Below are positions 55,130-57,331 of a DNA stretch of 64,000 nucleotides, piece by piece; position 1 is the first letter of the stretch; every line of letters begins with the position of its first letter. The translations under genes and the position numbers were made by a program. Source of the DNA: Croceicoccus sp. Ery15 (GTDB lineage Bacteria; Pseudomonadota; Alphaproteobacteria; Sphingomonadales; Sphingomonadaceae); contig NZ_CP087588.1 of the NCBI RefSeq assembly GCF_020985305.1, forward strand, positions 1,488,001 to 1,552,000, in the 5' to 3' direction. The notes under the pieces were generated by a model. That model was not told the DNA's origin. It ran no database searches and saw nothing but the letters and a program-made list of their open reading frames with translations.

Positions 55130-55882
55130 TCAACCGGCGACTTCTTCCGCGACCGGTTCTTCCATCGCGCCGATGTCGACGCCGGCATCCGCTGCGCCCT
55201 TCTGCCCGCCGCGACGTGCAGCCTCGGCAATGGCGTCGCAGTACAGGCGAACGGCACGGGCCGCATCGTCGTTGCCTGGGATCGGGAACGAGATGCCCGA
55301 CGGATCGACATTGGTGTCGAGGATGGCAACGACCGGAATGCCAAGCACATTGGCTTCCTTGATGGCCAGTTCCTCGACATTGGCGTCGATCACGAACATC
55401 ACGTCGGGAATGCCGCCCATGTCGCGGATGCCGCCCAGCGAAAGCTCGAGCTTGTCCCGCTTGCGGGTCATGTCGAGGATTTCCTTCTTGGTCAGACCCG
55501 AAGTGTCGCCCGACAGCTGTTCCTCGATGGTTTTCAGCTTCTTGATCGACTTCGAAACGGTCTGCCAGTTGGTCAGCATGCCGCCCAGCCAGCGGTGGTT
55601 CACGAAATACTGGCCCGAAGCGAGCGCGGCCTCGCGGATCGGGTCCTGTGCCTGCCGCTTGGTGCCGACGAACAGCACCTTGCCGCCTGCCTGCGCAGTG
55701 GCCGACACGAAGTCGAGCGCGCGCTGGAACAGCGGCACGGTCTGCGACAGGTCGATGATGTGAACACCGTTGCGGGCGCCGAAGATATACGGCTTCATCC
55801 GCGGGTTCCAGCGGTGGGTCTGGTGGCCGAAGTGTGCGCCGGCCTCGATCAATTGCTGCATGGTGACGCCAGTGGACGCCAT
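55130..55882 (-). CDS. rpsB: 30S ribosomal protein S2
   Basis: 250 residues from [21 protein letters not shown]; an earlier in-frame codon is rejected because this is the conserved beginning. [13 protein letters not shown] and [16 protein letters not shown] are conserved motifs. First gene of rpsB-tsf. The upstream 365 bp hold its promoter and that of the divergent small gene. Confidence 0.97.
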
Positions 55883-56116
55883 AATCGTTTCCTTTCCGGT
55901 TTGACCTCTGGAAGGCGGATGACCCGCAGGCTGTGGCCCGCGCGGCACCGGTTGATGTGTGCCTTCCATGTGGATTTGCCCGCCTGACCCGCCCAGGAAA
56001 TCCGGACGCAGAATCATGCGAACGGCGCGCCCTTAGCGGCAATTGCAGGCAATGGGAAGCCCCGATGCGTTACGGGGCGCCGGACGGTCCGCATACGACG
56101 GGCCCGATGAACAGGC

Positions 56117-56142
56117 TTGACAGATCGGAACAAAAAGTGAAC
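56117..56142 (+). promoter_or_regulatory. LexA box overlapping a promoter (GAAC-N7-GAAC)
   Basis: GAAC at 56128-56131 and 56139-56142, separated by exactly 7 bases, is the reverse complement of the alphaproteobacterial SOS box GTTC-N7-GTTC. It starts 5 bases after a consensus -35 hexamer TTGACA (56117-56122), so LexA binding would block transcription. No clear -10 was found. It lies about 105 bp before the small membrane-protein gene at 56248 and about 250 bp from rpsB. Confidence 0.65.
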
Positions 56143-56247
56143 AAAGCTGTCAGACAGTCAATTACGTATCAATGCCTAACGTCACATTTCCGGATCGCCT
56201 GCGTTCTATAGCAGCAAGGCGAATGGAACAAAAGGGGATCGTAAACC

Positions 56248-56508
56248 ATGACCGATTTTCTGACCGGCGATCTTGTCGCGATCGCACCCGTTCTTACCTT
56301 TGCCGCCATTGCGCTGGGCTGCGCATGGGGCGTGCGCAGGATGCTGATCGAAATGCTGGCGGATTACCGCGCGCTGGACGCGGCAAGCGAGGTGCCGGAG
56401 GCACCGCGCCGTCACTACGCCGGGACAAAGGCCGAAATCGTGGAACTTCCGGTCCGCAAGCGGGCTGTCAGCCCGCTGCCGAACGCTCCGCTGCGCGCTG
56501 CCGCTTGA
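56248..56508 (+). CDS. small single-span membrane protein, likely SOS-controlled
   Basis: 86 residues from ATG 56248 behind AAAGGGG. Residues about 8-29 form one membrane helix (DLVAIAPVLTFAAIALGCAW), followed by a basic-acidic amphipathic part (RRMLIEMLADYRALDA) and a Pro/Arg-rich tail. No known family is recognised. The LexA box upstream suggests induction by DNA damage. Its last 41 bases overlap the convergent pssA gene. Size and topology recall SOS-induced division inhibitors such as Caulobacter SidA, but there is no sequence proof. Confidence 0.65.
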   Translation: MTDFLTGDLVAIAPVLTFAAIALGCAWGVRRMLIEMLADYRALDAASEVPEAPRRHYAGTKAEIVELPVRKRAVSPLPNAPLRAAA

Positions 56509-57331
56509 CCTTGCGATAGCGCCAGAGGCCATAGGGGATCAGCGCAATATAGACGACGCAGACCGCCACCAGTGTCAGCCAGGGTTCCAGCAACAATGCC
56601 GCGCCCAGCAGTCCGACAAAGGCGATCAGCTCGATCCGCACCGACCGGCCCGGCTTGATCGACGTCCAGCTCAGTGTGGCAAGGTTCGAGATCATCAGGA
56701 ACGCGATCAGCACGACCCAGACCGCAACCAGCACCGGATCGCGGAACATCGCCTCGCCCGTCGCCATCCACAGATAGAGCGGCAGGAATGCCAGCCCCCC
56801 GCCCACCGGCGCAGGCACGCCGGTCAGGAAACCGGCGGACTTATGCGGCTGATCCTCGACGTCGATCTGCGCGTTGAAACGGGCCAGCCGCAGCATGCAG
56901 CACATGGCCAGCGCCAGAGAGGCAAACCAGCCTATACGCGGCAGATCCTGTAACGACCAGAGGTAAAGGATCAGCGCGGGCGCCACGCCGAACGAAAGCG
57001 AATCGGCAAGGCTGTCGAGTTCGGCGCCGAACCGGCTTTGCGCGCGAAGCAAGCGTGCGATCCGCCCGTCGATCCCGTCAAGCGCGCCCGCCATCAACAC
57101 GGCCAGAACCGACATCGACCATTGGCCCGCAATGGCGAACTTAATGCCCGTCAGCCCCAGACATAGCGCCGCCGCCGTGATCGCATTGGGCGTGACCGCC
57201 CGCATCGACAGGCCCCGCGTCCGGCGGCGCGGAACCGCCCGTTCGCCATGGGTAATGCGCGGACCGATATCGCCATCCGCACCATTCGGGTCGTCGAAAA
57301 GATCGTCGCTGTCGGACGGGCCGTTCATCAA
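56468..57331 (-). CDS. pssA: CDP-diacylglycerol-serine O-phosphatidyltransferase
   Basis: 287 residues with about eight membrane helices. The CDP-alcohol phosphotransferase motif is [11 protein letters not shown]...GAELDSLAD (Asp88, Gly89, Ala92, Arg93, Gly102, Asp106, Asp110). The N-terminal ~40 residues are a polar extension. It makes phosphatidylserine from CDP-DAG, then Psd decarboxylates it. Its 5' end overlaps the psd stop by 4 bp. Confidence 0.93.

Follow-up and report, generated by a model that had tools for sequence, protein, structure and literature searches.

A small gene at the 3' end of pssA in Croceicoccus sp. Ery15, preceded by a LexA-type operator and coding for a predicted single-span membrane protein of 86 residues, is, on balance, probably a core member of the LexA regulon whose product is induced in the SOS response, is short lived, and acts in the inner membrane as an inhibitor, most likely of septation, in the manner of SidA, YneA, and SosA. 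Control by LexA is well supported by comparison of related genomes, which brings out the operator, the gene, its predicted membrane helix, the purifying selection on it, and its conserved end; arrest of division is proposed by analogy with those inhibitors. The features of the locus within the window (the whole stretch of 64,000 nucleotides that was analyzed) are collected in Table 1.

Table 1. Features of the locus, in window coordinates.
Feature	Position	Strand	Basis or remark
TTGACA, putative -35 element	56117..56122	+	Sequence; same spacing in 69/96 regions of relatives
LexA operator GAACAAAAAGTGAAC, predicted, over spacer and -10 zone	56128..56142	+	Motif counts and conservation
Leader, operator to start codon	56143..56247	+	Other leaders hold TTATNCACA in 21/96; the window's is without it
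GGAACAAAAGGGG, contains likely ribosome-binding site and repeats operator half-site	56225..56237	+	10/14 same-genus leaders
86-residue single-span membrane protein (predicted), no known family	56248..56508	+	
Hydrophobic core of predicted membrane helix, about residues 9-29 within predicted helix 3-47	56272..56334	+	
C-terminal Ala-Ala-Ala and stop, ssrA-like end, overlapping pssA	56497..56508	+	
pssA (CDP-alcohol phosphatidyltransferase), convergent; last 41 bases overlap the small gene	56468..57331	-	
rpsB, divergent neighbor; adjacency lost in some relatives	55133..55882	-	

The initial annotation had described a GAAC-N7-GAAC box downstream of a TTGACA and ahead of an 86-residue, single-span ORF belonging to no known family, and all three elements are present, the ORF matching nothing in Pfam. 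Its description of the gene as hidden between rpsB and pssA holds for the box, which does lie between the two genes, but not for the ORF, which runs into pssA by 41 bases. The window's rpsB is 93% identical to that of two named Croceicoccus, and the small gene's link is to the 3' end of pssA rather than to rpsB. AAGGGG stands ten bases ahead of the ATG; no consensus promoter was found at the locus.

Taken alone, the box in the window is not significantly above chance, since GAAC-N7-GAAC has 3 matches in the 64 kb against a mean of 1.41 in shuffled sequences, 14 of 100 of which reach 3. Across the whole genome, the loose motif occurs 118 times versus 87 for its reversed control, and the tighter form GAACA-N6-GAACA, which the window box fits, occurs 16 times versus 2. 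Genes adjoining these 16 sites include recA, uvrA, rmuC, and a radical-SAM gene, all named through Pfam (six ORFs next to the motif were scanned, and those at L092 and L095 had no family above the cutoff), and several of the sites adjoin no recognized gene. The label imuA for the ORF at L092 was dropped, as Pfam gave it no support. The lexA gene itself (PF01726 match from 1225264) carries its own box, GAACGAATGCGGAAC, about 55 bases ahead of the match. With its GAAC-N7-GAAC operator lying over the putative promoter, as in a LexA regulon, the candidate box fits the genome's LexA-type motif set. Two near-identical loci elsewhere in this genome (L089 at 215847 and L102 at 2528320) also carry LexA-type boxes, each with another box some 240 bases away, ahead of a hydrophobic ORF of about 110 to 118 codons; they may represent a duplicated element controlled by the SOS response.

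A protein search from a single sequence is of little use here because the sequence drifts too fast (the window protein found matches in 8 of 60 genomes at an E value of 0.01, its own genome included), and position, beside rpsB and then beside pssA, was used instead; three of the eight matches (L006, L007, and L008) lie far from rpsB and are not this gene. Among 115 rpsB-upstream regions of Sphingomonadaceae obtained from rpsB searches, 96 contain a box no more than 450 bases from rpsB and, after it, a small ORF whose N terminus is hydrophobic. These ORFs, which encode 91 distinct proteins, are 69 to 112 codons long and lie 43 to 226 bases beyond the box; in L185 there are two boxes, with the small gene slightly further on. 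Dinucleotide-shuffled segments yielded such an ORF in 3 of 480 cases; a control in which the ORF finder was run on the reverse complement (91/96 positive) was not used, since the complement carries pssA, whose product is a membrane protein too.

Eleven genomes without a box at rpsB, or with the contig cut there, were searched through pssA, and the box appears near the pssA 3' end in all 11 and the ORF in 10 (nine detected by script, and that of L218 by eye and then by script). One of these eleven (L073) is not among the 115, which brings the total to 116 regions; box and small ORF occur together in 107 of them, including regions in which the gene sits away from rpsB. Several species are repeated among the 116 (e.g., L106/L015, L107/L016, and L156/L024), so these counts represent regions and not independent species. 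Within this total, L038, which has a contig end and a wrong rpsB anchor, enters the count by way of its pssA locus (L226), and L225 is counted as positive though its ORF is short (54 to 56 residues, ending RA). The initial annotation had made its reading depend on the box being conserved wherever relatives keep the gene: these 107 regions speak for that dependence and seven against it, six with no box and one with a degenerate box.

The majority operator over the 96 regions is CGCTTGACAG-N4-GAACAAAAAGGGAACATT, and a TTGAC begins 11 bases ahead of it in 69 of them and 9 to 12 bases ahead in 81. Given this fixed distance, the box covers the spacer and the -10 zone, a usual place for a repressor.

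The ORF persists without a box in five genomes named Novosphingobium (L126, L133, L139, L152, and L153) and in a metagenome bin labeled Porphyrobacter (L179). The motif occurs 14 to 22 times elsewhere in these six genomes versus 0 to 6 times for the control, so the loss of the box is local, and the six could show, as a natural experiment, what took the place of LexA control. In L030, the ORF is present and the box is degenerate; the box is present with a broken ORF in L227 and with no ORF in L178, a metagenome bin. L179 and L176 differ although both derive from a single metagenome bin, so that bin is mixed. Beyond the family, none of 28 pssA loci examined in other families of the class (out of 92 non-Sphingomonadaceae genomes that gave a pssA match) has the box, which is present in the one other Sphingomonadaceae genome of the same pssA sample (L229). 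Nor does any of 14 rpsB regions from outside the family (L075 to L088, two of them shortened by contig ends), a comparison that left out eight order-level genomes with rpsB matches. As far as sampled, the small gene appears only in Sphingomonadaceae.

None of 26 members of this protein group scanned matches Pfam, and a single hit by one of the 26 to an ABC-permease model of NCBIfam (E value of 0.0054) was taken as chance. A wider profile recovered 168 homologues, and the 120 listed are all unnamed or called "hypothetical protein." AlphaFold2 predicts one helix (residues 3 to 47), the single membrane helix expected of a small protein of the SidA/DidA type, and a low-confidence tail without structure. 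A net positive charge is seen in the tail of 95 of the 96 proteins (0.9896), and an N-out, C-in orientation is therefore expected from the positive-inside rule. Sequences are very variable outside the helix and the C-terminal end, with 9 to 34% identity to the window protein.

For the 13 most closely related pairs (dS no higher than 0.36; last 36 codons excluded), dN/dS is 0.05 to 0.53. Over all 1,159 pairs, the median is 0.67, with values below 1 in 1,026 and of 1 or more in 133, the latter being distant pairs, for which the ratio is unreliable because of saturation and alignment. By these comparisons, the ORF encodes a real protein under purifying selection. That a chance box merely happens to precede a spurious ORF would agree with the unremarkable motif count in the window, but the 107 of 116 regions, the dN/dS values, and the 3 of 480 shuffles make this vanishingly improbable, conservation already refuting it.

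The C-terminal end is conserved. An ssrA-like C-degron has a nonpolar -AA-COOH end, and such an end is found in 89 of the 96 proteins (7 end otherwise) and in 115 of the 120 homologues listed from the 168. The host tmRNA tag, ANDNEALALAA, itself ends in ALAA, so the end of the small protein resembles the mark that the cell itself uses for degradation. The gene overlaps pssA in 93 of 95 loci, and the phase of the overlap never varies; the -AA end could therefore be a by-product of the basic tail of PssA. We examined the synonymous sites of pssA in 88 distinct loci: opposite the penultimate Ala, 73 of 78 Arg codons are CGG, and opposite the last Ala, 50 of 50 are AGG (with the first base dictated by the stop codon), versus 24% and 31% G-ending Arg codons opposite positions -3 and -4 and 34% in the rest of pssA. 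Because the bias falls on the last two Ala codons and not on their neighbors, these two codons look kept, and the synonymous codons of pssA suggest selection for the Ala-Ala end of the opposite gene. The Arg codon at +1, past the stop of the small gene, is 75% G-ending for no reason that we found, and those at +2 and +4 are 0 and 9% G-ending, so shared ancestry of the loci moves these codon figures. Three loci are without the overlap, of which the two from Sphingobium (L136 and L150) end in -AA and L218 ends in ALA. The locus appears to be a case of two reading frames shaping each other, with synonymous codons of pssA following the needs of the gene opposite.

Phospholipid synthesis is another conceivable target: SOS transcription entering pssA at its 3' end, together with the overlapping antisense, or contact between the small protein and PssA, would lower the supply of phosphatidylethanolamine and with it envelope growth. 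Linkage to pssA persists even where rpsB has moved away, the overlap is present in 93 of 95 loci, and a scan of 55900 to 56800 gave one terminator-like site on the minus strand and none on the plus strand. Tail-to-tail coding overlap, however, locks genes together without any functional tie, and L136, L150, and L218 lack it, which leaves this alternative very unlikely.

The leader between operator and start codon contains further conserved elements in some relatives. TTATNCACA, which we take to be a form of the DnaA box, occurs 24 times in 21 of 96 leaders (L017, L019, L020, L028, L029, and 16 others) versus an expectation of 0.1 and a single site in stretches of equal length on the upstream side of the box, which suggests control by DnaA in addition to LexA in those genomes. 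GGAACAAAAGGGG, which repeats the LexA half-site with its A-run, is exact in 10 of 14 same-genus leaders, with one variant and three leaders without it (the alignment covered 10 of the 14). A palindrome, CTGTCAACAG, is found in 18 of 96 leaders, many from Qipengyuania/Erythrobacter, and in none of the equal lengths upstream; beside it is a hairpin with a GGAAC loop that shows a few two-sided changes in 15 chosen leaders (11 predicted pairs, five of them changed on both sides in at least one sequence; covariation term of -0.1, which is weak). The fold predicted for the window's own leader RNA is not convincing (z score of -1.77; 10 of 200 shuffles equally good), and a scan of 55880 to 56560 against Rfam gave one match, far below the cutoff.

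A different reading is that of a toxin. TisB, an SOS-induced single-span peptide, is a short membrane toxin controlled by an antisense RNA. DinQ is described as a toxic, SOS-induced, single-span peptide (PMC3567139). A small membrane toxin of the TisB/DinQ sort would use its helix to perturb the inner membrane and lower the cell's energy, leading to dormancy or tolerance with no specific block of division. The size, the single helix, SOS control, and the possibly structured leader of one clade would suit a translationally restrained toxin, and fast sequence drift fits a general effect on the membrane. To our knowledge, however, SOS toxin peptides of this sort are much shorter and are without a long basic tail, the covariation term is weak, and the conserved -AA end suggests regulated turnover. 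Nor was an antisense RNA like theirs recognized at the window locus, where Rfam gave nothing above threshold, though an undescribed one would escape such a scan. We consider a toxin unlikely.

For the septation inhibitor that we favor, the following sequence of events is proposed. LexA at its operator would block a promoter with TTGACA as its -35 element; DNA damage would remove LexA, and the 86-residue protein would be made and inserted into the inner membrane as a single helix, its basic, disordered tail in the cytoplasm. Septation would then be held, most likely via the late divisome (FtsW/FtsI/FtsN), as by SidA in Caulobacter and YneA in Bacillus. Once repair is complete, LexA would return, and the protein would be cleared rapidly by ClpXP or a like protease acting on the ssrA-like Ala-Ala end. 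We infer LexA binding, induction, turnover, and the division target from the features described above, and one of these features, the variability of the sequence, would be surprising for a protein with a conserved partner unless the helix makes the contact. An SOS membrane protein with some other target, such as the nucleoid or the secretion machinery, would agree with the missing family match and with a sequence that names none of FtsW, FtsI, and FtsN; nothing specific speaks against it, but parsimony with SidA, YneA, and SosA makes it quite unlikely.

A broader version of the septation reading is more speculative and, to our minds, doubtful: an undescribed SOS checkpoint spanning the Sphingomonadaceae, with a self-destruct end written antisense to pssA that locks the two genes together and, through DnaA boxes in the leader in many genera, a brake answering to both damage and the initiation of replication. 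No published SOS division inhibitor of Sphingomonadaceae, and no paper on the small gene, was found in the open-licence literature; for Sphingopyxis granuli TFA, the portions of Table 1 examined list lexA, recA, and imuAB-dnaE2 and no such small gene (PMC6472365).

Among known SOS division inhibitors, SulA is soluble, acts on FtsZ, and is rapidly proteolysed, and its family (PF03846) has no match in the window protein or anywhere in this genome. YneA and SosA are proteins of Gram-positive bacteria with their larger part outside the membrane, whereas the basic tail of the window protein is predicted to be inside. YneA of Bacillus is an SOS-induced division inhibitor acting on FtsW (PMC13396833), and SosA of Staphylococcus is likewise an SOS-induced inhibitor of division (PMC6851548). 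The initial annotation had proposed a Sphingomonadales counterpart of SidA and DidA, which is possible as a functional analogy only. Both proteins are from Caulobacter crescentus: SidA has 29 residues and acts on FtsW, and DidA, which is damage induced, has 71 residues and one predicted helix and acts on FtsN (PMC4211646). With these two as examples, small single-span proteins can inhibit division in an alphaproteobacterium (PMC4211646). DidA resembles the window protein in being small with one predicted helix but is SOS independent, being driven by DriD (PMC4211646). SidA, likened here by description and not by sequence, has in its 29 residues little room beyond the helix; like the window protein as proposed here, however, it is a small inner-membrane protein of an alphaproteobacterium under LexA control, the operator type GTTC-N7-GTTC is common to both, and a lexA deletion in Caulobacter causes filamentation through sidA (PMC12700426). 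The window protein may work as these SOS membrane inhibitors do. Its gene, which stands behind a DNA-damage switch in most Sphingomonadaceae genomes examined and may be a brake on division while DNA is broken, is a compact candidate, open to experiment, that recurs across the family and comes equipped with an operator, a probable -35 element, and a probable signal for turnover.
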